Of a stretch of DNA of 64,000 nucleotides, positions 25,145 through 60,008 are shown piece after piece. The DNA lies in NCBI RefSeq assembly GCF_000300005.1, contig NC_018691.1, forward strand, positions 930,001 through 994,000, given 5' to 3'. The translations under genes were made by a program, and so were the position numbers. The DNA is from Alloalcanivorax dieselolei B5 (GTDB lineage Bacteria; Pseudomonadota; Gammaproteobacteria; Pseudomonadales; Alcanivoracaceae). The stretch's first letter is position 1. Each line of letters starts with the position of its first letter. The notes below the pieces were generated by a model. The model was not told the DNA's origin, did not search any database, and was given only the letters and a program-made list of their open reading frames with translations.

Positions 25145-25231
25145 TTTGCGCCACGGAGCCGCTGTGGGCGCTTGCCAGGGTGTTGTGTATGAGCAGGCTG
25201 GTCCATGGTTGCGGAACAGCCCGCTTACCGT

Positions 25232-35201: not shown

Positions 35202-35390
35202 AGTTGACAGTTGATAGTGGACAGTTGACAGCGAAAAGAAAAAGATCGCGGAACAGTCTGATTCTTAGCCGCTTGCTTGCAAGCGAATATTGTCAAAGGC
35301 TTGAGTGACATCATTCGCTTGCAAGCAAGCTTCCCACAGCAGTTCAGCCCCTTGTTTTCGCTGTCAACTGTCCACTATCAACTGTCAACT
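35202..35390. repeat. Nested palindromic element, copy A
   Basis: Perfect 36-bp outer inverted repeat (35202-35237 and 35355-35390; arm begins AGTTGACAGTTGATAGTGG) encloses a perfect 18-bp inner palindrome (GCTTGCTTGCAAGCGAAT at 35271-35288 with its complement at 35313-35330). It lies precisely between the stop codons of the convergent HD-GYP and GGDEF genes. No coding potential. Copies B and C are at 38138 and 50474. As RNA either strand would fold into a long stem, so it may act as a bidirectional terminator. Confidence 0.9.
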
Positions 35391-35394
35391 TCCT

Positions 35395-36615
35395 TCACAG
35401 CGTCTGCACCCGCTGCAGCTCATCCATGAACGCCACGCAATTGCGGCCCGCGCCCTTGGCTTGGTAGAGCGCCTCGTCGGCCCGTTTGATCAGGGCGAGA
35501 ACGTCCTTTTCTCCGGGCAGGGAACTGGCCACGCCGACGCTGATGGTGACCACCTGGCTGATCCTTGATCCGGCGTGGGGCAGGCCCAACTGCTCGATCC
35601 GGGTACGCATCCGTTCGGCGAACACCAGGGCGTCCTTGAGGCTGGTGTTGGCCAGCACCACCAGGAACTCCTCGCCGCCGTAACGGGCGACGAAATCGGC
35701 TTCGCCCTGGGCCATGCCACGGGGAATGCCGGCCACGGACTTGAGGCATTCGTCGCCGGCCAGGTGGCCGTAGGTATCGTTGTATTGCTTGAAGAAATCG
35801 ATGTCGAACAGCACCACGGTGACGTTATCGATGGCATGCCGGCTACGGCCGTGCAAAGCGTCATTGAGGCGGGACTCCATGCCGCGCCGGTTCAGGCAGC
35901 CGGTCAGGCCGTCCCCGGTGGCCTGGCTCTCGAGCACCCGGTTGGCCGAATGCAGCTCCGCCCGGTGCTGATACAGCACGTGCTCGGACAGAAAGTGGCT
36001 GCGCAGCAGACGCTCGTAAATATATTGGCCAAACAAACTCATGGTGCCGGTTGCCAGGGAGAACAACAGCAGCGTCAACGCCTGGGACAGCGGCAGAGTA
36101 TTGGGGGCGAGGGTGCAGAGGGCCTGGAGCGCCAGTATCGCCGAAGTGCTCAGAGCGGAGGCCAGGAACGGCACACGCAGCAGTACGCCGAGCACCAGGA
36201 TCGCCAGGGGAGTTTGCAGGAACAGCAAGAACGCTTGCGGGTGATCGATGGACAGGCCCATCCACATCCCGGTGATCGCCACCGCGAACGCCAGCAGGAT
36301 AATCATCGGATGCAGCCAGCGGCGCAAATCCGGGCGATGGGCGACCACCGCGGTGGCCACCGCCAGCATGATACAGAACAAACGTGGGCGCCAGGTGGCG
36401 GTGACCAGGTCCGGCTCCACGGTCAACTCCAGAATCACCGACAGAGCCAGAATGGAAACCAGGGTGATGGTGGCCCAGGGTGTGATACGGGCCACGTTAC
36501 TGCGGAAATAGTCAACGAATTCGCGTTCCAGCGGCGCCGGAAGACGCAAATGCCAGGGCAGCCGTATGTCGCTGCCGGACGGAAGCGTGCTCGTCCGTTG
36601 CGGGTCTTGGGTCAC
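35395..36615 (-). CDS. Membrane diguanylate cyclase (GGDEF)
   Basis: 406-residue c-di-GMP synthase. About six membrane helices lie in residues 45-195, then a GGDEF domain (about 230-400) with active-site 'RYGGEEF'. The inhibitory I-site Arg is missing: the four residues ending six before GGEEF read GEAD rather than RxxD, so product inhibition should be lost. Substrate and metal residues ('DIDFFKQYNDTYGH') are intact. It ends four bases beyond nested element A and is convergent with the HD-GYP gene. Confidence 0.92.
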   Translation of the reverse strand: MTQDPQRTSTLPSGSDIRLPWHLRLPAPLEREFVDYFRSNVARITPWATITLVSILALSVILELTVEPDLVTATWRPRLFCIMLAVATAVVAHRPDLRRWLHPMIILLAFAVAITGMWMGLSIDHPQAFLLFLQTPLAILVLGVLLRVPFLASALSTSAILALQALCTLAPNTLPLSQALTLLLFSLATGTMSLFGQYIYERLLRSHFLSEHVLYQHRAELHSANRVLESQATGDGLTGCLNRRGMESRLNDALHGRSRHAIDNVTVVLFDIDFFKQYNDTYGHLAGDECLKSVAGIPRGMAQGEADFVARYGGEEFLVVLANTSLKDALVFAERMRTRIEQLGLPHAGSRISQVVTISVGVASSLPGEKDVLALIKRADEALYQAKGAGRNCVAFMDELQRVQTL

Positions 36616-36729
36616 CTTGGGTCCTTATTACTGCTGGTTCAGGGACAGAGGTGTCCCTGCGGATACATTCAGGCTCCCAGCATAACGCCTGACGCGACAG
36701 ATATCCCGCAGCTATATGAGCAAAGCCAA

Positions 36730-37014
36730 CTATATCAGCAAAGCCAAAAGCGCCTGGCGCTTTTCCGCGGGCAGGCGGCGAAAGCAGTCCAGTAGTAATC
36801 CCTCCTCCAGGCCCTGGGGAACACAGCCTTCGGATCTTGGCAGATCTCCGGGCCATTCAACCATGCTGCGCTGCAACCGGGCCACGATTTCCGCATTCAT
36901 GCTTCGGTGACTGTGGCGGGCGGCCTGGGCAATGCGATCACGCATGCCGGGAGGGAAACGAACCACGAACTTCTCGGCCCGCGTGGTCTCGTCCTGCTTC
37001 ATAGTGTATGTCAT
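36730..37014 (-). CDS. Arc-like ribbon-helix-helix DNA-binding protein
   Basis: 94-residue protein with the Arc/MetJ-type fold: 'EKFVVRFPPGMRDRIAQAA' (strand and first helix) and 'RSMNAEIVARLQRSM' (second helix). Proteins of this type bind DNA as dimers and often repress their own gene. The start at 37014 or 37002 is uncertain; the first has a GGGG three bases upstream, the second has no site. The region 36616-36729 between it and the GGDEF gene holds nothing visible. Target genes are unknown. Confidence 0.75.
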   Translation of the reverse strand: MTYTMKQDETTRAEKFVVRFPPGMRDRIAQAARHSHRSMNAEIVARLQRSMVEWPGDLPRSEGCVPQGLEEGLLLDCFRRLPAEKRQALLALLI

Positions 37015-37181
37015 ATGCCCCGAGAAAACGGTTACCTTACGCACTTTTTAAACATGACGCGATGATGGCACGGTGCTATTAATCGGCCTTGATCCGGGTC
37101 AATTCCCGGTGCGAAAGAGCATGCGGGGTAGCGTCGCGGCCTCTGTTATGATCGCCTTGTCAGGAGAGAGAGCACACCGCC

Positions 37182-38132
37182 ATGAATGTCGCCGGCGCCG
37201 ATCTGAATTTATTGAAGTACCTGGATGTGCTGCTGCGGGAGAAAAACGTGACCCGGGCGGCGGAACAGCTGGGCATTACCCAGCCGGCCATGAGCAACAG
37301 CCTCAAACGGCTGCGGCAGATGTTCAACGATCCGCTGCTGATCCGCACCAGTGAGGGCATGACCGCCACCGACCGGGCCCTGGAGCTGCAGCCTCTGGTG
37401 CGTCAGTTGATGGCGCAGGCGGAATCCCTGTTCAATCCGGAGGAAGTGTTCCGTCCCGAGGAAAGCCGCCGGGTTTTTCGTATCATGACCAGCGATTACG
37501 CGGAGGGCACGTTGGTGCCGCACATCGTGCGCCGTCTGCGTGAAGAGGCGCCCCATGTGGTTCTGGACTTCCTGACGCCGTCGGATGTCAGTTATCCCGA
37601 TATGGAACAGGGCCGGGTGGACATGGCGGTCAACCGGTTCAATGAAATCCCGGGGTCCTTCTACCAGGTCACCCTGTGGAAGGACGCCTTCTCCTGCCTG
37701 CTTAACCGGGACAACCCGATCGCCAGGCATTTCGATCTGGACAGCTACCTGTCCGCCCAGCATATCTGGGTATCCAAGACCGGTTTTGGTGTCGGTTTTG
37801 GCATGAACCCGGAAAAGCTGGGTGGGCTGGGCTGGATCGACCACGCTCTGCAGCAGATGGGGCGGACCCGCAAGATCAGTATCTTCACCCGCCACTATCA
37901 AATGCCCGCCCTGCTGGCCATGAACAACGACCTGGTGGCGACTCTGCCGTCCCGGGTGGCGCGCATGCAGGCACAAAACCCCCGTCTGGTGATCAAATCA
38001 CCACCGTTCGACATTCCCGAGTTCGAACTGAAAATGGCCTGGTCCCCCCTGCTGCACCACAACGCCGCCCACCGCTGGCTGCGCAAGCTGATCCAGGAGG
38101 AGGCCGAGCGGATATTGGCGGAGGACCCATAA
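37182..38132 (+). CDS. LysR-type transcriptional regulator
   Basis: 316-residue regulator with an N-terminal winged helix (about 8-66, 'LNLLKYLDVLLREKNVTRAAEQLG', here in two parts, and 'QPAMSNSLKRLR') and a C-terminal ligand-binding domain of the PBP type. The 'NVAGADLNLLKYLDVLL' start places it near the NodD/LeuO-like subgroup. AGGAGAG precedes the ATG. No divergent target gene is adjacent; the nearest upstream gene is the RHH gene about 170 bases away on the other strand. The ligand is unknown. Its 3' end abuts nested element B. Confidence 0.9.
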   Translation: MNVAGADLNLLKYLDVLLREKNVTRAAEQLGITQPAMSNSLKRLRQMFNDPLLIRTSEGMTATDRALELQPLVRQLMAQAESLFNPEEVFRPEESRRVFRIMTSDYAEGTLVPHIVRRLREEAPHVVLDFLTPSDVSYPDMEQGRVDMAVNRFNEIPGSFYQVTLWKDAFSCLLNRDNPIARHFDLDSYLSAQHIWVSKTGFGVGFGMNPEKLGGLGWIDHALQQMGRTRKISIFTRHYQMPALLAMNNDLVATLPSRVARMQAQNPRLVIKSPPFDIPEFELKMAWSPLLHHNAAHRWLRKLIQEEAERILAEDP

Positions 38133-38137
38133 AAAGG

Positions 38138-38332
38138 GCAGTTGACAGTTGATAGTGGACAGTTGACAGCGAAAACAAGAGACCGGACCGCTGTGGGAAG
38201 CTTGCTTGCAAGCGAATATTGCCAAGCGCCTGAGAGAATCCCATTCGCTTGCAAGCAAGCTTCCCACAGCGGTTAAAGATCACCCGTTTTTGTTTTTCCG
38301 CTGTCAACTGTCCACTATCAACTGTCAACTGC
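38138..38332. repeat. Nested palindromic element, copy B
   Basis: 34-bp perfect outer inverted repeat (38138-38171 and 38299-38332) with arm sequence almost identical to copy A, around a perfect 30-bp inner palindrome (38188-38217 and 38243-38272, containing GCTTGCTTGCAAGCGAAT). It lies between the convergent LysR and QueD-like genes. The QueD-like gene reads 5 bases plus its stop codon from within the right arm. This is the most perfect of the three copies. Confidence 0.92.
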
Positions 38333-39203
38333 TTTTTAGGTTGTTTTCGCCGGCTTCAGCTATCGCCCCCTTACCGACGCCCTCGAAGGCGCGGACGCGG
38401 AAGTGCTTGCCGGGGGCTTCCTCGGCCAATTGCCGGGCGATGTGGTCGGCCAGGTATTCCACCGTGGTGTCGGTGTCGATCAGATAGCAATGGTCTTCCG
38501 GGATCACCAGTTCGAAGTGGCCCTGGGGCGCGTCGTAGCGGAACCGGTGATGGGGGACTTCCTCGACGAAGTAAGTGCCTTCCAGATCTTCCCGGGTGCC
38601 GATGTAGATGTCTTCCCAGCGGTCCGCCCACAGCTTCTCCCAGTAACGGCTGCGGCGGCCGTTCTCGAAGATCTGAATGGTGGAACGGTGGCCGTGGGCG
38701 ATGCGCTGACAGTTACCGTCGTGCTTCTTCAGGCCATGGGAATAATGGTAGAAAGGCGCGGTACCGGTGTCCTCCTCACGGAGCAGGATGCGCGCTTCAT
38801 TGACATTGTCTGGCAGGGACGGTTCCAGCAGTTCCATCAGGAACAGGGTGACGGAGGCCTTGGACACCTCGGTACCGGGGATTTCCAGCAGGCTCTCGGT
38901 GGGCGCCAGCAGACGGATTTCGCCGGCACCATACTGCCAGGTGAGGCTCAGTTGCTGGTCTTTACGCCGATTCAGGCTCAGTGCCTCATGGGCGCCGGGG
39001 AACAGCAGACGGTGGTCGACCTGATCGTCGATCAGGCGCTTGAGCTGCCGTTTGACCTGGCCGAAATCAAACACCATGCCCTGGCCGTCCAGATCACCGG
39101 ACAGTTCCAGGTCCACGATCCAGGATTCCCCGATCATGCCCCGCTTGGGGTGCAGGTAGGAGAAATCCAGTACGGTCAGGTTGTCTACGAACAGAGTGGC
39201 CAT
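38325..39203 (-). CDS. QueD-like 6-carboxytetrahydropterin synthase homolog (long form)
   Basis: 292-residue protein of the 6-pyruvoyl-tetrahydropterin synthase fold, about twice the length of ordinary QueD (about 120), so it likely contains two T-fold units. The second half carries the family pattern 'CQRIAHGHRSTIQIFENG' (Cys followed by HxH metal ligands, with one extra residue) and 'IDTDTTVEYLADHIA' (Glu). The first half ('MATLFVDNLTVLDFSYLHPK') is a diverged unit. Function (queuosine or pterin metabolism) is family-based and uncertain. The last residues KSS and the TGA come from nested element B. Upstream 39204-39540 (337 bases) has no convincing gene. Confidence 0.8.
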   Translation of the reverse strand: MATLFVDNLTVLDFSYLHPKRGMIGESWIVDLELSGDLDGQGMVFDFGQVKRQLKRLIDDQVDHRLLFPGAHEALSLNRRKDQQLSLTWQYGAGEIRLLAPTESLLEIPGTEVSKASVTLFLMELLEPSLPDNVNEARILLREEDTGTAPFYHYSHGLKKHDGNCQRIAHGHRSTIQIFENGRRSRYWEKLWADRWEDIYIGTREDLEGTYFVEEVPHHRFRYDAPQGHFELVIPEDHCYLIDTDTTVEYLADHIARQLAEEAPGKHFRVRAFEGVGKGAIAEAGENNLKSS

Positions 39204-39537
39204 ATCGTTCCGATCAGCAAAACAGAGTTCACGGATATCATCGCCGCCGGCGATGCCAGGGCGATAGTATACGCGCCCCGGGCGGCCTGGCTCACCCCAC
39301 CGAAGGCGATCGGGGCGATGAATTGGACGGGATGTGAACGGCACCACGTCTCGGCGACGTGGCGCGCATCCTGCCCGGTGGTGGTGGTAAACGCAAGCTG
39401 CGACCAGCGGTGACCGGCTGTCTGGCGTGTGCTGCTCTGTTGTTCTATGGTTGGCTCTGCCCGTCGGTAAAACACCCGTGCGCGGATGCCCGGTGCCGGC
39501 GGCGCGAAAACCCAGTAAAGCCATTGGATACCGTTGA

Positions 39538-39879
<342 letters not shown>

Positions 39880-39891
39880 GCCCGGAGCCCC

Positions 39892-39918
39892 GGGGCCGGC
39901 TTGCCCGGCCCCTAATAA
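39892..39918 (+). terminator. Terminator after hinT
   Basis: Perfect 8-bp stem GGGGCCGG / CCGGCCCC (39892-39899 and 39905-39912) with a 5-base loop starts 13 bases after the hinT stop; only TAATAAAA follows, so the T tract is weak. Confidence 0.5.
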
Positions 39919-39965
39919 AAGGTGGCAATCCCGAGTGCCGCCTAAAAACAAAAGGAGATAATAAG

Positions 39966-40406
39966 ATGAATGGTAAAGCCTGGATCATCGGCCTGCTGGC
40001 CGTGGTCGCCTGTGTGCCGGCTTTCGCGCAATTGCCCGACGACGCCGAGCGCAAAGTCATCGACCGTCTGATGACGCGCATCGCCGCGCTGGAACAGACC
40101 GGCCGCGAGTTGCACGAAAAATACCCCGATAGCAAAACCGCCGACGTCCAAAAGGCCTGCAAGGCGGATTTCCCCGACTTGCCGGAGCTGGCCCGTAACC
40201 TGCGCGGCGAGGCCGCCGCGTTGCAAACCCTGGCTTTCAAGGTGCATTTGAGCATGGCCGCCAACGACCTGGTGCAATGCGTGGACTGTCTGGGCACGGT
40301 AACCTCCTGTGACGGCGCCTCCGCCTCCCTGGAACGCGCCAGGGACCAGATGAAGCGCATGGAGGACTACGCCAAACGCCAGGCCGCGGGGGAGGACCCG
40401 TCCTGA
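39966..40406 (+). CDS. Secreted helical protein of unknown function
   Basis: 146-residue protein with a signal peptide (ending 'PAFAQ') and an all-helical mature part rich in A, E, L and R. It has four cysteines in the mature part ('QKACKADF', 'QCVDCLG', 'TSCDG'), likely disulphide-bonded in the periplasm. A purine-rich AAAGGAG precedes the ATG. No recognised family. It is convergent with the TetR gene, 13 bases from its end. Confidence 0.7.
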   Translation: MNGKAWIIGLLAVVACVPAFAQLPDDAERKVIDRLMTRIAALEQTGRELHEKYPDSKTADVQKACKADFPDLPELARNLRGEAAALQTLAFKVHLSMAANDLVQCVDCLGTVTSCDGASASLERARDQMKRMEDYAKRQAAGEDPS

Positions 40407-40419
40407 CCCTGGTGTCCGC

Positions 40420-41049
40420 TCAGGAGGTCAGCAGAGCCCGGGCCATGACGGCCAGCCGATCCACCCGTTGTCGGATCGGGGGCGTGTTGGTGTCCAGCAA
40501 CAGCGCATAGCGCCGCGCCCCCCAAAGGGCCAGGACCAGGGTTTCCAGAGTGTCGGCGGTCACCGCCGGCCCGGGCCGGTCCGGCCAGCCCGCCACCAGC
40601 GCGTCCCAGGTGTCCACCAGCTGTCGGAAGGCGCGCTGGTGGTGGGCGGCGGTGGCGATTTTCCCTTCCATCATCAACATATCCCGATCGAAGTAGGGCG
40701 CTTGCCCGTCCTCGTCCAGTGTCAGTGATACCGCTCGCCGCAGACGCTCCTCCCAGCAATGCCGGTCCAGAGCGGCGTCTTCCTCGCTCAGCCGCTGGCA
40801 AAGCACGTCCATGCAATGGCGTACGTAACCGGACAACAGCGCGGTGCGGTTGGGGAAATAGTCATACAACGTTCCCACGGCGTAGCCGCTCTCTTCGGCG
40901 ATGGCACGGGTAGTGGCGGCGGCCGGTCCGTCGCGGCGCCAAATCCGAACAAAGCCGTCGTAAAGGGCCTGCACGGTGAAAACCGCGCGTGCCTGGGAGG
41001 GCCGCTTATGCGGTTGGGGCAGGGGCTTCGATGGTGTTTTCCTGGTCAT
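40420..41049 (-). CDS. TetR-family transcriptional regulator
   Basis: 209-residue regulator with an N-terminal helix-turn-helix ('RAVFTVQALYDGF', 'GTLYDYFPNRTALLSGYV') at about residues 20-70 and a C-terminal ligand-binding domain. It is divergent from the DUF2855 gene (73-base shared spacer) and probably represses it. The N-terminal 20 residues are basic. The inducer is unknown. Confidence 0.9.
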   Translation of the reverse strand: MTRKTPSKPLPQPHKRPSQARAVFTVQALYDGFVRIWRRDGPAAATTRAIAEESGYAVGTLYDYFPNRTALLSGYVRHCMDVLCQRLSEEDAALDRHCWEERLRRAVSLTLDEDGQAPYFDRDMLMMEGKIATAAHHQRAFRQLVDTWDALVAGWPDRPGPAVTADTLETLVLALWGARRYALLLDTNTPPIRQRVDRLAVMARALLTS

Positions 41050-41122
41050 GGGGAATCCGAACCCGTTGGCGAAGGGGCGTTGTTAGCATGATGCCACGTT
41101 AATCATCACCAACGGAGCGACC

Positions 41123-42223
41123 ATGCGCACCCCTAATTTGCGACTGCTGACCGACAAGACCGACCTGGGCCATACCCGGCTGGATGACAGCCAGACACTG
41201 CCGGAAGCCGGTGACGGCGAGGTGATTCTCACCGTGGACCGGTTTGCCCTGACCACCAACAACATTACCTACGCCGCCTTCGGTGACGCCATGAACTACT
41301 GGTCCTTCTTCCCCACCGGGCAGAACGGATGGGGGCACATGCCGGTGTGGGGATTCGCCACCGTGACCGACTCGCGGGTGCCGGGAGTGGACCCCGGGGA
41401 GCGTTTCTATGGTTACTTCCCCATCGCCACGGTGCTCAAGGTGCGGCCGGAGCGGATCAGCGAGCGCGGCTTCTATGACGCCACCGACTACCGCCAGGGA
41501 TTGCCCTCACCCTATAACCAGTACACCCGGTGCAGCACCGACGGCGCCTATGTGAAGGAACTGGAAGATTACCAAATGCTGCTGCGGCCGTTGTTCTTCA
41601 CTTCTTATATGCTGGCGGACTTCCTCGCCGACAACCAGTTCTTCGGCGCGCGGCAACTGGTGGTCTCCAGCGCCTCGAGCAAGACCGCCTATGGTGCCGC
41701 TTTCGCGTTGCGGGAAATGGGCGACCCGGCCCGCATCGCGCTGACGTCGCCGTCGAATCGGGGCTACGTCGAGGGCCTGGGACTCTACCAGCAGGTGGTG
41801 GACTATGATCAACTGGCGTCACTGGATGCCGATCAACCGACCCTGTACGTCGACTTTTCCGGCGATGAGGCGTTGCGGCACGCCGTCCACGACCATTTCG
41901 GCCCGGCCCTGGTGTACGACTGCTACGCCGGTTCCGCCACCAACACGGAATTCCTCAAGGCCGACGCAACACTGACACCGGAGCCCCGTTTTTTCTTCGC
42001 GCCGGTGCAGATCCGCAAACGCAATCAGGACTGGGGGCCAGCGGTGTTGAGCGAACGCTTCGGCGCGGCGCAGCGGCGTTTTCTGCAGGCGGTCAGCGAC
42101 CCGGTATCGGGCTGGATGAGCCTGTGCGAGCACCGGGGTTTCGAGGCGGCGGGCCCGGTGATCCGCGCATTAAATGATCACGGCGGACTGCCTCGGGAAG
42201 GACACGTGGTGCTTTTGCGGTAG
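41123..42223 (+). CDS. DUF2855 family protein
   Basis: 366-residue protein matching DUF2855, a family of unknown function that resembles medium-chain dehydrogenases in overall plan: an N-terminal GroES-like part ('GDGEVILTVDRFALTTNNITYA') and a later Rossmann-like segment ('QLVVSSASSKTAYGAAFAL'). The 'SSASSKTAYG' stretch takes the place of the usual GxGxxG, so cofactor use is unclear. It is divergent from a TetR regulator, suggesting an inducible role in detoxification or catabolism; this is inference. Confidence 0.85.
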   Translation: MRTPNLRLLTDKTDLGHTRLDDSQTLPEAGDGEVILTVDRFALTTNNITYAAFGDAMNYWSFFPTGQNGWGHMPVWGFATVTDSRVPGVDPGERFYGYFPIATVLKVRPERISERGFYDATDYRQGLPSPYNQYTRCSTDGAYVKELEDYQMLLRPLFFTSYMLADFLADNQFFGARQLVVSSASSKTAYGAAFALREMGDPARIALTSPSNRGYVEGLGLYQQVVDYDQLASLDADQPTLYVDFSGDEALRHAVHDHFGPALVYDCYAGSATNTEFLKADATLTPEPRFFFAPVQIRKRNQDWGPAVLSERFGAAQRRFLQAVSDPVSGWMSLCEHRGFEAAGPVIRALNDHGGLPREGHVVLLR

Positions 42224-42272
42224 CAGATTGGCTATCCTCGGGGGCCATGCCCAGAAAAAAGGATAGGCGACC

Positions 42273-42875
42273 ATGAGTCGATGGATAGAGCCGGTCACGC
42301 TGGAAGGCCGTCAGGTGGTGCTGGAGCCGTTGCGGGCCGAACACGTGGACGATCTGATCGAGGCGACCCGGGATGGTGAGCTGTGGCGGCTCTGGTACAC
42401 CTTCGTGCCGGCGCCGGATGCGGTGGCGGAGTACGTGAGCGCTGCCCTGGCACGCCGTGATCGGCATGGTGAAATGCCGTTCGCGGTGCGCCATCGCGAC
42501 AGCGGCAAAGTGATCGGCTCCACCCGTTTTTGTCATGTGGACGAGGACAACCATCGTCTGGAGGTGGGCTACACCTGGTATGCCCGCCGCTTTCAGCGCA
42601 GCGGCTTGAACACCGAATGCAAGCGGCTGCTGCTGGGCCATGCCTTCGAAGCGCTGGACGCCATCGCGGTGGAATTTCGCACCCATTGGCACAACCGCGC
42701 CTCCCGGACGGCGATCGCCCGCCTCGGCGCCAAGCAGGATGGCGTGCTGCGCAATCATACCCGCAGTGCGGATGGCGTATACCGTGACACCGTGGTGTTT
42801 TCCATCATCAATCTGGAATGGCCGGCGGTGCGGCAGAATCTGGCTTTTCTGCTGGACGTACCTGGCCCCGATTAG
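42273..42875 (+). CDS. GNAT N-acetyltransferase (RimJ/RimL type)
   Basis: 200-residue acetyltransferase. It starts with 'VTLEGRQVVLEPLRAEHVDDL' and has the family's 'EVGYTWYARRFQRSGLNTECK' and 'TAIARLGAKQDGVLRNHT' segments, which match the RimJ/RimL group of protein N-terminal or small-molecule acetylases. GGAT precedes the ATG. The substrate is not predictable. It converges on the DegV gene with a 7-base gap. Confidence 0.88.
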   Translation: MSRWIEPVTLEGRQVVLEPLRAEHVDDLIEATRDGELWRLWYTFVPAPDAVAEYVSAALARRDRHGEMPFAVRHRDSGKVIGSTRFCHVDEDNHRLEVGYTWYARRFQRSGLNTECKRLLLGHAFEALDAIAVEFRTHWHNRASRTAIARLGAKQDGVLRNHTRSADGVYRDTVVFSIINLEWPAVRQNLAFLLDVPGPD

Positions 42876-42882
42876 TGGCAAG

Positions 42883-43824
42883 CTAGCGGAAATCCCGCTG
42901 CTCGGTCAGCAGACCGATACTGAGCGCGCCGGGGCCGATATTGACGCTGCCGGTGAGCCCCATACTGCTGACCAGCAGCTTGACCTGATGGCGGTCGGCG
43001 CAGCTTTTCAGCGTCTCGAAGCCCGGCATCTGATACACCGCCTGAGGATCGCCAGCGTAGCTTACGCACAGTACCGGCGATAACAGTCCCTTTTCGATAC
43101 AGCGCGCGCCGTGTTCGAACAAGCGCGCCACGCCCTGGGCGAAGCCGCGAATCTTGGCCACCGGGAACGTCTCGCCGCTGCGCGCGCAAAGAATCGGTTT
43201 GATATCCAGGGCCGAGCCCAGTAACGCGCCCACCAGCCCCACGCTATTGTCGCCTTTCTTGCGGGCTCTTTGCCGCAGATAGTAGAGATCGGGCACCACC
43301 GCGTAGCCGGTGGCTTTGCCGGCCAGGGCGCTGACCCGGGCGCGCAACTCGGCGCCGCGCATGCCGGTGGCCATCAGCCGCACGGTTTCCGCCGCCAGCG
43401 CACCCTGACCGGCGAACAGGGTCTGGCTGTCGATCACCCGCACCGCGAACGGACCCTGCAGGCCGGCCCGGTCACGCACCGCCCGGTACTCGGACAGGAT
43501 GCCGTGGGCCGCTTCCGTGGCGTTTTGGAAAATCGGACTGCGGCTTTGCAGTACGGTTTCCACCAGGGCGTAGTCGCAATGGGTCACCACCTGTTCGAGA
43601 AAAAGTTGTTTGATCTGCGCCACGGTGGCGGGCAGGGACTGCGCATCATGGACTTTGTCCAGTAACTGACGGTCATAAAAGGATCGGGTGCGCTGGGGCG
43701 AACGGTCATCGGCGATGATCTCGTCGCCGATCCGGATCGACGCCGGCAGCACCAGGATGCCGTTTTCTTTGATAAAGTCAGAGGGCAAGTCGCAACCGGA
43801 GTCCACCACCAGGCCAGTTTTCAT
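42883..43824 (-). CDS. DegV family fatty-acid-binding protein
   Basis: 313-residue DegV protein; the family binds fatty acids and, in Gram-positive bacteria, delivers them to fatty acid kinase. The N-terminal 'VVDSGCDLP' and 'ILVLPASIRIGDE' and C-terminal 'SVNIGPGALSIGLL' (nearly universal HxGPGxxG region) are present. The ATG at 43824 has GAGGA upstream and gives a start matching the family. No kinase gene is adjacent, and its role in this Gram-negative is open. Confidence 0.9.
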   Translation of the reverse strand: MKTGLVVDSGCDLPSDFIKENGILVLPASIRIGDEIIADDRSPQRTRSFYDRQLLDKVHDAQSLPATVAQIKQLFLEQVVTHCDYALVETVLQSRSPIFQNATEAAHGILSEYRAVRDRAGLQGPFAVRVIDSQTLFAGQGALAAETVRLMATGMRGAELRARVSALAGKATGYAVVPDLYYLRQRARKKGDNSVGLVGALLGSALDIKPILCARSGETFPVAKIRGFAQGVARLFEHGARCIEKGLLSPVLCVSYAGDPQAVYQMPGFETLKSCADRHQVKLLVSSMGLTGSVNIGPGALSIGLLTEQRDFR

Positions 43825-43953
43825 GGGTATCCTCGCCAATAATGCCCAAGCAGCGCCGACTCGGGCGCCAGGCGGGCATGAAATCGCAAAAGCGACGGTT
43901 TTTATGGTTCGCGCTGGTCCGCGTTCTAATCTTTTATGACTATATATGGATCA

Positions 43954-43988
43954 TCTTATTGTATTAATCAACGACTTTTACAATAAGA
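43954..43988. promoter_or_regulatory. Perfect 10-bp inverted repeat upstream of acpH
   Basis: TCTTATTGTA and TACAATAAGA with a 15-base spacer, 36 bases before the acpH-like start codon, in a strongly AT-rich stretch (43925-43990) that contrasts with the GC-rich surroundings. Likely a regulator-binding site over the acpH promoter; not followed by a T run, so not a terminator. Confidence 0.5.
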
Positions 43989-44024
43989 CAAAAGTGGATG
44001 GCGCCTCGGCGTCGCAATAAAACA

Positions 44025-44636
44025 ATGAATTATTTTGCTCATTTAGTACTGGCGCAGCCCACGGTGACCTCCAAGGTCGGCAACCTGATGGGGGATTTCA
44101 TGCGCGGGATTCGTGAGGAGGCGTTGTCGGAGCCGGTTCGGGCGGGCTTGCATAATCACCGTCTGGTGGACCGCTTTACCGATGACCATCCGCGGGTGCG
44201 CGCCGCGCGCCGGCTTTTCTCGCCGCAGCGGCGGCGCTTTGCGGGTGTGGCGCTGGATGTCCTGTTCGACCATTTTCTCATTCGCCACTGGTCCCGCTTC
44301 CATGACGAAGACCTGGCGCAAGTGATCCGCGCTGATTATCGCCATCTGCAATACGGTCAGCCGTTGATGCCCGGGCTCATGCGCGACACCACCCGACGCC
44401 TGGTCAGCAACGACTGGTTCGGGCATTACGCCGACCTGGATACGGTGGGCGTGGCGTTGGACCGCATCGCCGGGCGATTACGCTTCGCCAATGCCTTCGC
44501 CGGCAGCATCGAGGATATCCGCCTCCACTATGGGGCGTTGGAAGATACCTTTCTGAGTTTCTACCCCGAACTGCGAGCCCATGTGGCGGGCGCCGCGCTG
44601 GAACGCCCGACTCAGCCGGGCACGCGCGCCGGTTGA
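44025..44636 (+). CDS. acpH: ACP phosphodiesterase family protein (AcpH-like, DUF479)
   Basis: 203-residue protein of the AcpH family, which removes the 4'-phosphopantetheine arm from acyl carrier protein. 'MNYFAHLVLAQP', 'GNLMGDFMRG' and 'HRLVDRFTDDHP' with several metal-binding His/Asp are typical. The ATG at 44025 starts the family motif directly. It overlaps the convergent SDR gene by 25 bases. Specific AcpH activity is family-based; many members are untested. Confidence 0.88.
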   Translation: MNYFAHLVLAQPTVTSKVGNLMGDFMRGIREEALSEPVRAGLHNHRLVDRFTDDHPRVRAARRLFSPQRRRFAGVALDVLFDHFLIRHWSRFHDEDLAQVIRADYRHLQYGQPLMPGLMRDTTRRLVSNDWFGHYADLDTVGVALDRIAGRLRFANAFAGSIEDIRLHYGALEDTFLSFYPELRAHVAGAALERPTQPGTRAG

Positions 44637-45475
44637 GCCGCCGCCAGCGGTGTCAGTTCCAATAACGCCATGGTCTCTTCGTAGAGCCGCGCCGCCAGCT
44701 CGCCGTTGCGTGCGCTGGGGGAGCGGCGGGCACGCCCCCGGGCATCGAAGTAGCCGCCGGTGACACCGACGAAATCCTCGTCCAGCGCCATGGAGACCGG
44801 CAGAAAGGCGGCCTTTTCCGGTGTGATCAGAGTGGGCCGGATCAGCGTCCGCAGGGGGCCGGGAACATGGCGGAAGATGCCGGTGTCGACCCCGCCGGGA
44901 TGCAGGGCATTGCTGGTGATGCCCTCCCGGGCCAGCCGTTGGGCCAGCACGTTGCTGAACAGGATGTTGCCCAGCTTCGACTGGCCATAGGCGTCCATCA
45001 CCAGATACGGGAAGCGGCCCCGCCAGGTACGGGAATTGATGCGCCCGAGCCAGTGCGCCACGGACGCCACGTGCAGAATGCGGGCGGACGGGGCCTGCCG
45101 CAGCAGGGGCAGCAGCAAATGGGTGAACAGCACCGGGGCGAGGTAATTGACGCCGAACTGCATTTCGTAGCCGTCGGCGGTGAACTGCTGCCGGGTGGGG
45201 ACGGTTCCGGCATTGTTGATCAGCACATCCAGCTCGCCGATTTCGTCCCGCAGCCGGCGGGCGGCGCTGTGGACCTGAGCAAGATCACTCAGATCCAGAG
45301 CGAACAGGCGCACTCGTGCCTGTGGGTGGTGATTCTTGATATGCGCCACGGCGGCCTGGCCGCGGGTCCGGTCCCGGCAGCCGATTAGGACTTCGGCGCC
45401 TCGCGCGGCCATTTGTTCAGCGCTGTGCAATCCCAGCCCGGAATTCCCCCCGGTAATGAGTACGGTTTTCTTCAT
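44612..45475 (-). CDS. Short-chain dehydrogenase/reductase
   Basis: 287-residue SDR of the retinol-dehydrogenase-like type. It has the nucleotide loop 'ITGGNSGLGLHSAEQ', 'NNAG', and the catalytic 'YGQSKLGN' (Tyr and Lys), with Ser in 'HVASVAHW'. The ATG at 45475 begins the 'MKKTVLITGG' core. The substrate is probably a lipid-like alcohol or ketone. The 295 bases upstream (45476-45770) hold no gene. Confidence 0.9.
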   Translation of the reverse strand: MKKTVLITGGNSGLGLHSAEQMAARGAEVLIGCRDRTRGQAAVAHIKNHHPQARVRLFALDLSDLAQVHSAARRLRDEIGELDVLINNAGTVPTRQQFTADGYEMQFGVNYLAPVLFTHLLLPLLRQAPSARILHVASVAHWLGRINSRTWRGRFPYLVMDAYGQSKLGNILFSNVLAQRLAREGITSNALHPGGVDTGIFRHVPGPLRTLIRPTLITPEKAAFLPVSMALDEDFVGVTGGYFDARGRARRSPSARNGELAARLYEETMALLELTPLAAAQPARVPG

Positions 45476-45770
45476 TGCTCCTCCCTGTGCCCGAAGCCGT
45501 TGTGCTTGCCGATGTAATGCTCGAAGGGGCTGTGTCCGATTACCCGAACAGGTTTCGAGGCTTACAGATTGGGACCGCCGGGGACATTCGCGGTTCGTTG
45601 GAATTTGGTAACCATTGCCATGATAAGTAGCACGCGACGGCCCGATTATGGCTGCCGCGCCGCCGGATCGGGCGTTGCGGATAGAATGCAGATCGTTGCA
45701 TGGCCCGCTTTCCCGTCTTGTTGAGGTATAATCGGCCGCCAAATCAATCGACTTGAGTCCGAGGGCGCTG

Positions 45771-46190
45771 ATGAGAGCCGCCATAAGGGCGCTGGCGTTG
45801 CTGCTGGCCGCCGCGAGCATACCGGTGCACGGGGAAACCACCCTCTCAGAGCGCCGCACCGTTACAGCTACAGCCTACAATTCGTTGCCGGGGCAGGGCG
45901 CGGGAGAAGATCACAGCCTGGCTGCCTGGGGTGATCAGCTGGAACCGGGCATGAGAGTCATCGCCGTGTCCCGTGACCTGCTTGAAGCGGGGCTGGACTA
46001 TGGTACGGCGGTCTCCATCGAGGGGCTGGACGGTATCTGGTACGTGCGCGACAAAATGCACTCCCGCTGGCGTAACAAGATCGATATCTATATGGGTGAG
46101 GATCGCAGGGCGGCGCTGCGCTGGGGCAAACGCAAGGTCAAGATCCGTTTCGAACCCCTTTCCCCGGACGTGCGGACGGCGAACCGCTAG
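45771..46190 (+). CDS. Periplasmic 3D-domain protein
   Basis: 139-residue protein with a signal peptide and a 3D (Asp-Asp-Asp) domain, the fold of the MltA lytic transglycosylase core. Visible motifs are 'VTATAYNSLPGQG', 'VIAVSRDLL' and 'WYVRDKMHSRWRNKIDIYMG'. The conserved aspartates are present, so a peptidoglycan-cutting role is possible. GAGGG lies five bases before the ATG, and a TATAAT is at 45727-45732. It converges with the next SDR gene by 13 bases. Confidence 0.8.
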   Translation: MRAAIRALALLLAAASIPVHGETTLSERRTVTATAYNSLPGQGAGEDHSLAAWGDQLEPGMRVIAVSRDLLEAGLDYGTAVSIEGLDGIWYVRDKMHSRWRNKIDIYMGEDRRAALRWGKRKVKIRFEPLSPDVRTANR

Positions 46191-46203
46191 TCCCGTCGTC
46201 CGC

Positions 46204-46977
46204 TTACTCGCGACTCAGAAAGGTCATGGTCAGGCGTGTCGAGGCACTGGGCAGCAGTTTGTCGAGTAGCTTGATCATCTTGAACACACCCCCCACCGGG
46301 TTGTGCACCGGCACTTCCCGCGCCGCCGCTTCCCAGACCTTGGCGGCGATGTCCTCCGCTTTCAGTTTCACGCCCAGACGGCTCACCACCGGCGCCTGAT
46401 AGTCAGCCTCTTCCACCATGGGGGTCTTCACGAAGGGAGGCATCACATCCACCACGCGGATCCCCAGACGTTTCCATTCGATATTGAGCGCTTCGGTGAG
46501 GCCGCGCACGGCGAACTTGCTGGCCGAATAACTGGCCAGGTGCGGCACGCCATAAAGCGCCGACGCGGAACTCATGTTGATGACCACCGGAGCGTCCGCC
46601 CGCCGCAGGGCCGGCAGGGCCGCCAGACTCATGTTGACCAGGCCGGTGACATTGATATCGATGATGCGTTTGTGCTGCTCCGCGCTGATCGCTTCGAAAC
46701 GCCCCATGCGCAGGATGCCGGCGCAATTGAACAGCGCGTCCAGCGCACCATCGCCGCTGAAAGCGGAAACCGCCCGCGCGCAGGCCTCCGCATCGGTGAC
46801 GTCGAGAGGGTGAAACCAGGCGCCATCCAGGTCCCGCGCCAGCCCGGCCAGGGCGGTCTCGTTGACGTCCAGCAGGCCTACCCGCCAGCCGTGTTGATGG
46901 AAGTGGCGCGCGGTGGCCAGGCCGATGCCGCTGGCGGCGCCGGTGATCAGGATACTTTTCGTGGTGGCGGGGATCAT
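46204..46977 (-). CDS. Short-chain dehydrogenase/reductase of the monooxygenase operon
   Basis: 257-residue SDR with 'ITGAASGIGLATARHF', 'NCAGIL', the 'NMSSASALYGVPHLASYSASK' catalytic region (Ser, Tyr, Lys). It is the last of a three-gene operon with a flavin monooxygenase and an alpha/beta hydrolase; it overlaps the hydrolase gene by 4 bases (ATGA). It may oxidise the alcohol to ketone before, or handle products after, the monooxygenase step. Confidence 0.92.
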   Translation of the reverse strand: MIPATTKSILITGAASGIGLATARHFHQHGWRVGLLDVNETALAGLARDLDGAWFHPLDVTDAEACARAVSAFSGDGALDALFNCAGILRMGRFEAISAEQHKRIIDINVTGLVNMSLAALPALRRADAPVVINMSSASALYGVPHLASYSASKFAVRGLTEALNIEWKRLGIRVVDVMPPFVKTPMVEEADYQAPVVSRLGVKLKAEDIAAKVWEAAAREVPVHNPVGGVFKMIKLLDKLLPSASTRLTMTFLSRE

Positions 46978-47933
46978 GGCCGTGTCTGCTCCGCTGCCGG
47001 GTGGTCGGATTGCCGGAAATGGTGCCGAAGAAAACCGGCGCCGCCGCGCAGGGCCAGATCGGCGTCGGCCAGCAACCCGGCGTGCAATTGAAAATCGTGC
47101 CAGCGTTGTGGATGGACCTGAATGCGGGCCTGGCCGCCGGCATCACGGATCGCTCGCGCCAGCCGGTGGCTGTCGTTGAGCAGGATTTCGTCACCACCGG
47201 CCTGAATCAGGACCGGAGGCAGCCTGGCCAGATCGCCATTGATCGGTGAGCATGGCGGCCGCTCGGGATGATCGCCGCCGTAGGCTCGGGCGGCGTCCGC
47301 CAGCCAGGCCTGACTCAACATTACGTCCCGGTCGGTATCGAACAGCCGGGTCAGGGTCAGATCCACCCACGGAGAAATCAGGAATAGCGACGCCGGCAGT
47401 GGCAGGCGCGCCTGTTTCAAGGCCAGCAGCGTCGCCACCGCCAGCCCGCCGCCGGCGGAATCCCCGGCCAGTGCCAGCCGGGCCGGATCGATGCCTTGAT
47501 CAAGCAGGGCCTGATATACCGCCATCGTATCCGCGATGGCGGCCGGACACGGATGTTCCGGCGCCAGCCGGTAGTCCGGCACCACGACCCGGGCCTGGCT
47601 GTGTCTGGCCAGATGAGAGGTCAGACCGTGATGAGTGGATGGCGACCCGGTGATATAGGCGCCGCCGTGCAGGTACAGCACGGTGGTGTCGGCGCCCTCC
47701 GGCTGATAGACGCGGCAGCGGACTCCGCCCGCTTCCATGTTGTGATGGGGCATACCACTGGCCCCCGGGTTGGTGCGCGCAAGGGCTTCCTGCCAGCGCC
47801 GCTGCGCGGCAATACCGACGCGAGGGTGGGCCACGGGTTTGAACAGCAACAGCAGGGCACGGCGTAAAGTGGCGACCAACAGACGCTGGTCGGGGCGGCG
47901 CCGTCGCCGCAGTGCCTCAGTGAGGGTAGTCAT
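46974..47933 (-). CDS. Alpha/beta hydrolase, hormone-sensitive-lipase family
   Basis: 319-residue esterase of the HSL family. Oxyanion motif 'YLHGGAYITG', nucleophile motif 'AGDSAGGG' with the catalytic Ser, Asp in 'AGGDEILLND', and His in 'RWHDFQLHAGL' are all present. It likely hydrolyses the ester or lactone made by the neighbouring Baeyer-Villiger-type enzyme. It overlaps the monooxygenase gene by 17 bases and the SDR gene by 4. A paralog lies at 50624 but has lost the nucleophile. Confidence 0.93.
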   Translation of the reverse strand: MTTLTEALRRRRRPDQRLLVATLRRALLLLFKPVAHPRVGIAAQRRWQEALARTNPGASGMPHHNMEAGGVRCRVYQPEGADTTVLYLHGGAYITGSPSTHHGLTSHLARHSQARVVVPDYRLAPEHPCPAAIADTMAVYQALLDQGIDPARLALAGDSAGGGLAVATLLALKQARLPLPASLFLISPWVDLTLTRLFDTDRDVMLSQAWLADAARAYGGDHPERPPCSPINGDLARLPPVLIQAGGDEILLNDSHRLARAIRDAGGQARIQVHPQRWHDFQLHAGLLADADLALRGGAGFLRHHFRQSDHPAAEQTRP

Positions 47934-49368
47934 AGTCGCTCAGGTCCAGTACCCGGGTCTGGCGCCGGTAATCGAAGGTGAAGCCCGGCCAGTTGTTGGT
48001 GTTCTTGCCGCTTTCGGTTTTGTACCAGCTGTCGCAGCCCTTATCCCAAACCGTGTCGCGGATGCGTTTCTGCAAGCGCCGGTTGAAATCGTTCTGTGTA
48101 CGTGAGCGTACTTCCAGCGCGCCGGTGGCAGGCAATTGCGCCAGCGCCTGCTGGATATAGTGAATCTGGCTTTCCAGCATGTAGATGATGGAGTTGTGGC
48201 CGAGGTTGGTGTTGGGGCCGTAGAGCATGAACAGGTTCGGGAAACCGTGCACGGTGATGCCCAGATACGCTTCGGCCCCGTCCCGCCAGACCTGATTGAG
48301 CGTCAGGCCATGGCGGCCGATGAGGGTCATGGGGGTGAGGAAATCGGTGGCCCTGAAGCCGGTGCCGTAAATGATCGCGTCGGCCCGGTGATGGGTGCCG
48401 GTACTGTCGGTGAGGCCGCTCTGATCCACCGACTGAATGCCGTGGTTGATCACTTCCACGTTGTCCCGGGCCAGTGCCGGATAGTAGTGGTTCGACATCA
48501 GGATGCGTTTACAGCCCATCGGGTAATCCGGGATCAGCTTTGCCCGCAATGATGGATCGGCAATGTGTTTTTCCAGGTGCCGGCGAAACAGCCTCTGGTA
48601 CACCGTCATGGCTTTCTGCAACGAAGTAAAACCCAGTACCCGGGATTCATTGGCGGCGTAGATACGCAGACGATCCAGCGTCTGGGTTATCGGCAGTGTT
48701 TTCAGCAGGCGGTGTTCCCAGGGGCGGTAACGGCGGTCCGGCTTGCCCAGCACATAGGCCGCCGAGCGTTGGAACAGCAGCAATCTGCCCGCCTTGCGGG
48801 CCACTTCCGGCACGAACTGGATGGCGCTGGCACCGGTGCCCACCACGGCCACGGTTTTGCCGGTCAGATCCACGTCGTGGTCCCAGCGGGCGCTGTGAAA
48901 ATGCGGACCCTGGAAGTCCTCGATGCCGGACAGCGGCGGGTAGGCCGGTTGATTGAGCTGTCCGGTGGCGGTGATCAGGGCTCGTGTGGTAACGGTTTCC
49001 CCATCGCTCAGCGTTAGCTGCCAGAGACCGTGGGCGTCCAGGTAACGGGCCTCGGTGACTTCGGTGCCGAAGCGAATATGCTCCCGGATACCATATTTGT
49101 CCGTGCAATGGCGCAGGTAGTCCAGGATTTCCGCCTGGGGCGCGAAACGGCGGCTCCAGGGGTAATGGCGCTCGAAGGAGAACGAATACAGATGCGAGGG
49201 CACGTCGCAGGCGGCGCCGGGATAAGTATTGTCGCGCCAGCAGCCGCCCACATCATCGCCTTTCTCGATCAGCAACAGATCGTGCTGGCCCTGAGTCTTG
49301 AGTTGAATCGCCATGCCCAGGCCGCCGAAACCGGCGCCGATAATGATGACCTGGTGGGTCGCTTCCAT
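47917..49368 (-). CDS. Baeyer-Villiger-type flavin monooxygenase
   Basis: 483-residue FAD/NADPH monooxygenase. The N-terminal FAD motif 'IIGAGFGGLGMA', the type I Baeyer-Villiger fingerprint FxGxxxHxxxWD ('FQGPHFHSARWD', about residues 149-160) and the second Rossmann 'VVGTGASAIQF' are seen. The 'YPGAACDVPSHLYSFSFE' segment sets it apart from AlmA/EthA-type enzymes ('SDSDM' at the same place). It should turn ketones into esters. First gene of the operon with hydrolase and SDR; divergent from an AraC regulator. Confidence 0.92.
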   Translation of the reverse strand: MEATHQVIIIGAGFGGLGMAIQLKTQGQHDLLLIEKGDDVGGCWRDNTYPGAACDVPSHLYSFSFERHYPWSRRFAPQAEILDYLRHCTDKYGIREHIRFGTEVTEARYLDAHGLWQLTLSDGETVTTRALITATGQLNQPAYPPLSGIEDFQGPHFHSARWDHDVDLTGKTVAVVGTGASAIQFVPEVARKAGRLLLFQRSAAYVLGKPDRRYRPWEHRLLKTLPITQTLDRLRIYAANESRVLGFTSLQKAMTVYQRLFRRHLEKHIADPSLRAKLIPDYPMGCKRILMSNHYYPALARDNVEVINHGIQSVDQSGLTDSTGTHHRADAIIYGTGFRATDFLTPMTLIGRHGLTLNQVWRDGAEAYLGITVHGFPNLFMLYGPNTNLGHNSIIYMLESQIHYIQQALAQLPATGALEVRSRTQNDFNRRLQKRIRDTVWDKGCDSWYKTESGKNTNNWPGFTFDYRRQTRVLDLSDYDYPH

Positions 49369-49470
49369 TGAGGGTATCCACTTTGTTTATTGATATCGGC
49401 CCACTGTAGCGGGATGGGAATGGGCTGTTTATGGCATGCTAGGACAAAAAGTTGTGGGAAACGGACAGCC

Positions 49471-50481
49471 ATGAGCGCATCCAGCCGGGGTTTGACCAGC
49501 GTACGCATGCAGGTGGAGTTCGCCGCGGAGCACGGTGTTTCCGTGGCGCGTCTGCTGCCCGGCTCAGACATCGAGCCGGAATGGTTGACGCGCAATGACG
49601 TGCAGATCGAGGCGGAGCAGGAGTTGGCGGTCGTCACTAATCTGTGCGCCGAACTGGGTGACAGCGCCGAACTGGGGCTGGTCATGGGCCAGCGTTATCA
49701 CTTGAGCAGCTACGGCGTTTGGGGATTCGCTCTGCTCAGCAGCGACACTTTCCGCGAAGCGGTGGCGCTGGGGCAGCGGTACCTGGATCTGACGTTCGCC
49801 TTTAATCGGGTGACGCTGGAAGAACAAGGCAGACAGGCCGCGCTTATTATTGATGACGGCGACCTGCCGGAAGGGGTGCGCGATTATCTGCTGGCCCGTG
49901 ACGCCAGCGCCATCATGATGATCCAGCAGGAGTTGTTTGCCAGCCGGATGCCGCTGTCGCGTCTTCAGCTGCGTCTGTCAGCGCGTGCCGCGGCCCCTTT
50001 CGAGGCGGTCTTCGGGCTGGTGCCGGAATTCGACCAGCCAGTGAACCGGATCGGATTCGCCGCCGGCTTGCTGGACCAGCCCTTGCCGCAGGCCAACCCG
50101 GTCACCGCCCGGTTGTGCGAGCAACAGTGCCAGCAGTTGCTGGCGCAGCGTCGGCGCCGGGTGGGCATGGCGGCACGGGTTCGTGAGCAGCTGCTGGCCA
50201 GGCCCGGCCAATTCCCGACCATGGAACAACTGGCCGACGAGATCGGCGTCACCAGTCGCACCCTGCGCCGGCGGCTGCTGGCCGAAGACACCCGATATCG
50301 GGAATTGCTGGACGAGGTGCGCCGGCTGCTGGCGGAACAATGGCTTTTGGGTGGCGGGCTGAGGCAGGAGGAAATCAGCGCGCGCCTCGGCTTCTCCGAA
50401 GTCTCCAACTTCATTCACGCCTTCAAACGCTGGACCGGACAGACGCCGGCGCGTTATCGACGGGAAAAGAGAGGCAGTTGA
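49471..50481 (+). CDS. AraC-family regulator (OruR/ArgR-like N-terminal domain)
   Basis: 336-residue regulator with a long N-terminal ligand domain and a C-terminal AraC helix-turn-helix pair (about 235-330, 'PTMEQLADEIGVTSRTLRRRL', 'EEISARLGFSEVSNFIHAFKRWTG' in two helices). It is divergent from the monooxygenase operon (102-base spacer), so it most likely activates it. The last residue Ser and the TGA stop lie within the left arm of nested element C, so the C-terminal end was shaped by that insertion. The ATG at 49471 starts the family-like N terminus. Confidence 0.9.
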   Translation: MSASSRGLTSVRMQVEFAAEHGVSVARLLPGSDIEPEWLTRNDVQIEAEQELAVVTNLCAELGDSAELGLVMGQRYHLSSYGVWGFALLSSDTFREAVALGQRYLDLTFAFNRVTLEEQGRQAALIIDDGDLPEGVRDYLLARDASAIMMIQQELFASRMPLSRLQLRLSARAAAPFEAVFGLVPEFDQPVNRIGFAAGLLDQPLPQANPVTARLCEQQCQQLLAQRRRRVGMAARVREQLLARPGQFPTMEQLADEIGVTSRTLRRRLLAEDTRYRELLDEVRRLLAEQWLLGGGLRQEEISARLGFSEVSNFIHAFKRWTGQTPARYRREKRGS

Positions 50482-50631
50482 CAGTTGATAGTGGACAGTT
50501 GACAGCGAAAGGAAAAAGTCAATTTATGAATTCTCTGTGGGAGCGCCGCCCGGCAAGCTTCCACAGTGGCTAAAGATCGGGCTGTTTTGTCTTTTCACGC
50601 TGTCAACTGTCCACTATCAACTGTCAATTGA
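50474..50631. repeat. Nested palindromic element, copy C
   Basis: Outer arms 50474-50507 and 50598-50631 match copies A and B (one or more mismatches at the right end, AATTG for AACTGC). The inner part is reduced to CTGTGGGAGC...AAGCTTCCACAG (50534-50567), a degenerate form of the inner palindrome. Lies between the convergent AraC and alpha/beta hydrolase genes; both genes take their TGA from within its arms. Confidence 0.88.
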
Positions 50632-59972: not shown

Positions 59973-60008
59973 AAGCCTCGTACAGGAGGCCCTATAGCGC
60001 CTCTGAAG

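Follow-up and report, generated by a model that had tools for sequence, protein, structure and literature searches.

The window analysed here, 64,000 nucleotides at positions 930001-994000 of the 4.93-Mb chromosome of Alloalcanivorax dieselolei B5 (genome G000), contains three palindromic elements, A, B, and C, which sit between protein genes and outside any 23S rRNA gene. Each element is bordered by two inverted arms, and each arm is an array of four 7-bp units, TTGACAG TTGATAG TGGACAG TTGACAG; a degenerate fifth unit (AAGGCAG and similar) often stands ahead of the four-unit array. Arrays of this design generally bracket S23 genes (family PF05635), and A, B, and C are probably members of the same family that lack the gene.

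Three elements between convergent genes

The arms of copy A were located, with a repeat finder and by inspection of the sequence, at 35202-35240 on the forward strand and 35352-35390 on the reverse strand (four-unit cores 35204-35231 and 35361-35388), around an inner palindrome at 35271-35330 whose own 25-nt arms (35271-35295/35306-35330) match at 92%. In copy B, arms at 38133-38186 (forward; core 38142-38169) and 38284-38337 (reverse; core 38301-38328) enclose a palindrome at 38187-38273 with perfect 31-nt arms (38187-38217/38243-38273, 100%). Copy C has arms at 50475-50507 (forward; core 50478-50505) and 50598-50630 (reverse; core 50600-50627), and a short hairpin at 50535-50567, read from the sequence and folded, which, judged by eye, is probably a remnant of a repetitive extragenic palindromic (REP) sequence. 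The outer arms are complementary over 39 nt (97%) in A, 54 nt (85%) in B, and 33 nt (97%) in C. Between the arms there is just the REP or short hairpin and no S23 open reading frame (ORF). Judged by eye, the palindromes inside A and B resemble REPs, and palindromes of the same type also occur in the window without arms, at 25063-25177 and 59892-59982.

All flanking ORFs contain recognisable domains. Copy A lies between a gene with GAF and HD domains (33648-35198, forward) and a GGDEF gene (35395-36615, reverse, start uncertain), copy B between a LysR family gene (37182-38132, forward) and a PTPS gene (38325-39203, reverse, start uncertain), and copy C between an AraC family gene (49390-50481, forward, start uncertain) and an alpha/beta hydrolase gene (50624-51556, reverse). 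The stop codon of the gene left of copy C (50479-50481) is the TGA of the first unit of the arm. A first-pass annotation of this DNA had described two-layered palindromes between the 3' ends of convergent genes and had set them apart from ordinary REP sequences. The palindromes were found where it had put them, and the convergent placement holds for all three copies. The inner layer stands in A and B, with a short hairpin in its place in C, while the outer layer had to be redescribed as four-unit heptamer arrays; the distinction from ordinary REPs was borne out, and these arrays belong to a family dispersed at gene ends.

The predicted fold of copy B has an energy of -136.5 kcal/mol, compared to -52.3 (sd 4.1) for 200 shuffled sequences, none of which equalled it. 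A- and T-rich stretches are visible by eye beside the predicted hairpin. A terminator scanner made no call at A or B, its loop limit of 8 excluding hairpins of such size, and Rfam yielded no match at the gathering score across the window.

Arms at stop codons throughout the genome

The earlier annotation had allowed for arms confined to this region, but a genome-wide search with the four-unit arm pattern (up to three mismatches) produced 85 dispersed matches. The reversed pattern, used as a control, produced 30, which probably represent the same periodic arrays matched in part. With genes called by a home-made codon-usage caller, a census of 46 stretches of G000 gave 55 elements, 38 with paired arms and 17 with a single arm; at least one further pair (1633628/1633938 of the chromosome) lies outside those stretches. 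Neighbouring genes were convergent at 31 elements, codirectional at 24, and divergent at none, whereas the background, made up of the remaining neighbouring gene pairs of these stretches once the element sites were subtracted, had about 19 convergent and 52 divergent pairs among 218. The convergent bias is thus strong, as had been anticipated, but strictly convergent placement is ruled out by the 24 codirectional elements. When up to three substitutions were allowed, 70 of 84 arms faced a 3' gene end and 14 a 5' end. Of the 3'-facing arms, 41 begin 0-16 bp past the stop codon, four lie at 70-232 bp, and the other 25 overlap the codon by 1-11 bp; bases up to 16 bp past a stop codon make up 9.3% of intergenic bases. 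The placement rule in this genome is "at a stop codon".

The interiors of the 38 pairs comprise 15 REPs, eight GAGGCCGC hairpins, 11 other sequences, three insertion sequences, and one S23 gene, the only gene found in them besides the insertion sequence. Terminal inverted repeats and dispersed copies are present, as in miniature inverted-repeat transposable elements (MITEs), and the genome contains five matches to PF01797, the family of REP-associated tyrosine transposases (RAYT). The three insertion sequences, at chromosomal positions 503193-504590, 1501765-1503249, and 2939403-2940862 (L054, L065, L082), are copies of one element with matches to PF00665 (integrase core) and HTH_Tnp_1, presumably of the IS3 family, whose end, by eye, also trails a single arm after 4032361 (L091). 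A transposon that ends in the arms and carries its own transposase was considered and rejected, as these three 1.4-kb pairs hold one insertion sequence that, judged from its aligned copies, has its own borders inside the arms. In G000, reading of the 38 paired elements revealed no transposase-bearing partner with the same ends.

S23 genes are bracketed by inverted heptamer arrays

The S23-bearing element of G000 occupies chromosomal positions 869079-869536, about 60 kb left of the window, and its ORF (869149-869454) belongs to PF05635/TIGR02436 (PF05635 E-value 9.9e-26). The locus, S23-B, has arms of the same TTGACAG type as A, B, and C, and its neighbours resemble, by eye, glyA and nrdR. When the flanks of S23 genes were inspected regardless of TTGACAG, inverted tandem arrays of some heptamer were seen in most, including GACGCCA, AAGCTAC, AAGTTGA, GGGCATC, AGTGGAG, AGGGTGT, TAGGCAG, and others, with a few units of 8 or 9 bp; a proteobacterial locus (L302), for instance, has GGGATTC arms. 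An inverted-repeat score of at least 14 was reached at 63 of 85 S23 loci (87 minus two incomplete ones), compared to 5 of 1500 controls; the 85 loci are not independent, orthologues being numerous among those of Alcanivorax. Of 299 proteobacterial genomes drawn evenly, 52 had a PF05635 match, 48 of them over the cut-off, and among the 30 best-scoring loci, one per genome, 18 of the 28 that could be scored reached 14. The best period of those tested (4-12) was 7 on both flanks at 76 of 94 S23 loci and at 49 of 3000 controls; adding the requirement of 15 or more matches in 21 gave 64 of 94 and 16 of 3000. S23 loci with heptamer arms come from several phyla, so the link between S23 and the arrays extends across them.

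The association also holds on plasmids, where 8 of the 25 records with a match were read: all eight had period 7 on both flanks, seven scored at least 14, and one scored 13. Two S23 loci (L228 and L253) lie inside 23S rRNA and have arms there. In genomes taken from a listing of TTGACAG arrays (at least 119 stretches), a profile search found PF05635 in 13 of the 13 checked, while a single-sequence phmmer search for S23 near the arrays, covering 106 of 119 stretches, found only an Alcanivorax one. Among the plasmid loci read, some armed S23 genes are situated between HsdS and HsdR genes, or between DUF1156 and Swt1-family genes (L370, NZ_OY725736.1; L374, NZ_CP128402.1; L375, NC_019759.1). A second S23 gene of G000 (265771-266046, L220) has CACGC-type arms, and similar arrays were noted by eye near the TTGACAG elements L065 and L088; the window holds one match to the CACGC-type array, as expected by chance.

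S23-B is conserved: its dN/dS ratio was 0.02-0.23 in 29 of 30 computable pairs and 0.30 in one near-identical pair (36 pairs, six with saturated dS; row L234 was left out). PF05635 is the only Pfam domain in S23. To our knowledge, this domain has no catalytic activity, and we know of no function for S23. The structural model of S23-B (41-row alignment, predicted local distance difference test score 96) is a four-helix bundle, and its nearest structures are the S23-family proteins 2rld and 2gsc (Xcc0516), followed by a plant inhibitor and then by Avd of diversity-generating retroelements (DGRs). Template-modelling scores against Avd (4dwl) and DGR complexes were about 0.67-0.77, with weak E-values of 0.09-0.34, below the plant inhibitor in rank. 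In the available text of the papers concerned, the likeness of PF05635 to Avd is already published (PMC10053308), and the domain is reported near cas genes (PMC3936711) and in rRNA insertions of the candidate phyla radiation (PMC11270868).

Heptamer types in S23-bearing and S23-free relatives

The arms of S23 genes supplied four heptamers, whose occurrences in 38 relatives, 16 of them S23-bearing, were counted as overlapping pattern matches with the S23 arms included. TTGACAG matches numbered 162 in G000, 110 in G008, 69 in G009, 32 in G006, 13 in G011, 11 in G007, 9 in G005, 8 in G019, 7 in G001, 3 in G010, and 1 each in G024, G015, and G039. AGTTAAC was matched 115 times in G019, 62 in G010, 61 in G005, 36 in G011, 29 in G007, 27 in G006, 10 in G008, 7 in G009, 5 in G024, and twice each in G000 and G012. 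For AAGCTRC the counts were 251 in G024, 210 in G001, 135 in G003, 36 in G005, 31 in G019, 16 in G010, 10 in G011, 3 in G004, and 2 each in G002 and G009, and for AATTGAY 14 in G024 and 3 in G019; for every heptamer, the remaining genomes had none. Reversed controls gave no matches for AAGCTRC and TAGGCAG and two for AGTTAAC, but were not near zero for TTGACAG and AATTGAY.

Dispersed arrays of the same heptamers are present in most S23-bearing relatives: more than three matches of any heptamer were found in 12 of 16 such genomes, whereas none of the 22 S23-free genomes had more than two (Fisher test, 7e-7; 12 of 15 versus 0 of 10 within the family, 1e-4; kinship ignored). The S23 arms agree with the common heptamer of the genome in G000, G008, G009, G005, G011, G007, G001, and G024. 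An independent set of 16 genomes was used for TAGGCAG, which was matched 47, 35, 20, 12, and 7 times in the five genomes with a TAGGCAG-armed S23 (38, 21, 10, 10, and 5 times away from the S23 arms) and 0-2 times in the 11 others. One of these five genomes is G119 (10 matches away from arms), whose further, TAGGCAG-armed S23 was noticed afterwards.

Orthologous sites

At site A the element is present in G000, G008, G006, and G007, while the flanking genes almost touch in G010, G005, and G001; the comparison leaves out G002, G003, G004, G011, and G012, in which the genes lie at least 1.2 kb apart by match positions. The arms are of TTGACAG type in G000 and G008; in G006 and G007 the same position holds AGTTAAC-type arms and a different interior. 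Where the element is absent, 15-19 bp separate the stop codons and no terminator is visible by eye. Of the first-pass suggestion of a mobile element that targets terminators, mobility gains support from this presence and absence, and terminator targeting does not.

Sister species differ in arm type throughout the genome, G009 having mostly TTGACAG and G005 mostly AGTTAAC. At site B, 7 of 8 units have G at their variable base in G009, compared to 1 of 8 in G010 and 0 of 8 in G005, whereas the interiors are 76-81% alike in the three genomes, compared to 50-52% for unrelated interiors. Because the interiors are inherited while the unit base differs, a change of the arms in place is the simpler reading here; a clear change in place is supported at this one site only. 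In G008, site B has one A-type arm and one mixed arm. The close relatives G006 (L353) and G007 (L352) carry the site B interior in opposite orientations, with 93.3% identity when one is inverted and 50.6% in direct comparison.

At sites 1086 and 1145 all 8 units of G000 have G at the variable base, and all 8 of G010 have A; for G010 the comparison omits sites 1083 and 1105, which show gaps of 2.8 and 0.9 kb. G010 is armless at site 1047, and at the position orthologous to G000:1047192 (L344) another palindromic repeat (GTAGGTCGGGTTAGCGAAGCGTAACCCGAC) occupies the place of the arm. At S23-B, sister species share glyA at 97.6% and S23 at 74.2% identity (G000-G006), or 97.8% and 75.2% (G010-G005), as if the S23 gene had been swapped. 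Elsewhere in the window, segments 55728-56467 and 58155-58906, 2.4 kb apart and 72-84% alike, are probably paralogous neighbouring genes.

Discussion

We propose, with a probability of roughly two in three, that A, B, and C belong to a family of heptamer-armed elements whose full form contains an S23 gene, which these three lack. Since S23 genes generally are bracketed by inverted 7-bp arrays, the outer arms are best read as S23-type rather than REP/RAYT-type. The full-length form would consist of an array of 7-bp units, an S23 gene encoding a PF05635 four-helix bundle, and an inverted array, a design that the two S23-bearing intervening sequences of 23S rRNA share, and different S23 genes go with different heptamers. 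Bare copies, with the same arms around other interiors, here REP hairpins, are scattered mostly at stop codons. S23 may act in trans on the arms, and the elements may spread by copying into gene ends. They could be kept there if a hairpin just past a stop codon does no harm, or if it serves as a two-way terminator or a protector of RNA ends.

Several observations weigh against this proposal. At 18 of the 94 S23 loci, period 7 is not the best one on both flanks, and no arms were found in the one phage contig read of two with an S23 match. G002, G004, G023, and G038 have S23 but 0-3 matches of the four heptamer types, and AATTGAY matches are few, S23-B arms accounting for 1 of the 14 in G024 and 2 of the 3 in G019. 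S23-B of G010 is TTGACAG-armed, yet that genome has 62 AGTTAAC and 3 TTGACAG matches; S23-B of G019 is AATTGAT-armed, yet AGTTAAC has 115 matches; S23 of G003 is AAGTTAAA-armed, yet AAGCTRC has 135; and G006 is mixed, its S23-B being AGTTAAC-armed, with 27 such matches but 32 of TTGACAG. Within G000, arms differ by 1.74 mismatches within an element and by 1.75 between elements, and the idea that arms are kept complementary element by element was rejected for this genome. At sites 1086 and 1145, interiors of G000 and G010 are 64% and 62% alike at the same site and 65% and 58% across sites. Since sharing a site does not make them more similar, another element may have replaced the resident one there, and the two sites were dropped as evidence of arm change in place. 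The right flank at S23-B is also lower in identity (85.0% in G000-G006 and 86.4% in G010-G005), so ordinary homologous recombination may explain the replacement of S23. No movement was observed, and no target duplication was seen, the relatives being too diverged.

S23-less arrays far outnumber S23 genes, the mixed arms of G008 and the inverted interior of G006/G007 at site B show recombination between arms, and three genomes (G010, G019, and G003) mismatch the heptamer of their own S23. All this would follow if host slippage and recombination made and homogenised the arrays and S23 genes merely landed or stayed in them. We hold that account to be unlikely, though one to be taken seriously, given that the 22 S23-free relatives hold at most two matches of any tested heptamer and that heptamers read from S23 flanks predicted dispersed families. 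Inverted ends, dispersed copies, the filled and empty forms of site A, and the armless site 1047 of G010 would equally suit MITEs of a putative transposase, with the heptameric ends incidental and S23 as cargo. This appears improbable, as the only genes inside the 38 pairs of G000 are S23 (once) and the insertion sequence with its own borders and transposase (three times), and target duplications were not seen. Bidirectional terminators or REP clusters that have nothing to do with S23 and are maintained at gene ends by selection would account for the convergent excess, the lack of divergent sites, and the strong predicted hairpin of copy B, but leave unexplained why S23 genes have arms of the same design and species-specific heptamers; with the scanner also negative at A and B, within its loop limit of 8, we judge them a very improbable explanation.

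The S23-element reading itself may extend further. S23 might be the Avd-like partner of a putative reverse transcriptase that copies heptamer-armed RNA to gene ends and rewrites resident arms to its own heptamer; S23 intervening sequences, the heptamer repeats of cyanobacteria and Xanthomonas, and the palindromes described here would then be outcrops of one sequence-specific system of rewriting that works across the genome. Behind this conjecture stand the Avd-like fold, the placement at gene ends, the heptamer differences between sister species, site B in G009, G010, and G005 and its half-changed form in G008, and the misfit between G010 arrays and the present S23, as after a recent swap. We consider it doubtful as a whole.

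We know of no explanation for the dispersed heptamer repeats of Cyanobacteria, Xanthomonas, and Beggiatoaceae, and our results suggest that several puzzling bacterial repeats belong together. If S23 and heptamer repeats go together, each gains a testable partner, and the ends would allow S23 elements to be spotted in any genome. A new question would be how dozens of dispersed 28-bp arms stay at one species-specific heptamer.

Comparison with known systems

In REP elements and bacterial interspersed mosaic elements, dispersed intergenic palindromes are combined with a trans-acting protein, RAYT. The inner palindromes of A and B are of this kind, whereas the outer arms are heptamer arrays of S23 design. 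With Avd of DGRs, S23-B shares the predicted fold. We found no paper that joins S23 with dispersed heptamers in a limited literature collection, in which absence is no proof.

Individual heptamers have been described before, in papers whose text was available to us in part. The Coxiella intervening sequence has an S23 ORF, tandem GACAGAT heptamers ahead of it, and a stem cut by RNase III; like the S23 elements, it holds the ORF in the loop of a stem formed by its inverted ends (PMC4990558). The window elements, in contrast, lie behind protein genes, lack S23, and occur many times per genome. In the accessible text, no link is drawn between the Coxiella heptamers and either dispersed arrays or further S23 genes (PMC4990558). 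Rehm et al. studied heptamers of Xanthomonas (GGGAATC) and Nostoc (GGGGA(C/T)T) as G-quadruplex repeats (PMC4692102); these share with the present arrays the 7-bp unit, a preference for four units, and a position near stop codons, with 70 opposite-orientation pairs in Xanthomonas campestris pv. campestris, and "23S" occurs nowhere in the available portion of that text (PMC4692102). The TAACTGA repeats reported by MacGregor in Beggiatoaceae, Cyanobacteria, and Bacteroidetes are likewise dispersed intergenic heptamer arrays in distant phyla with no evident mechanism, but are direct and, in the Beggiatoaceae genome studied, stand mostly just ahead of start codons; neither "23S rRNA" nor "helix bundle" appears in the part of the paper at hand (PMC4679880). 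The heptamers of Coxiella, Xanthomonas, Nostoc, and Beggiatoaceae were each already described, and S23 may be the gene that joins them.

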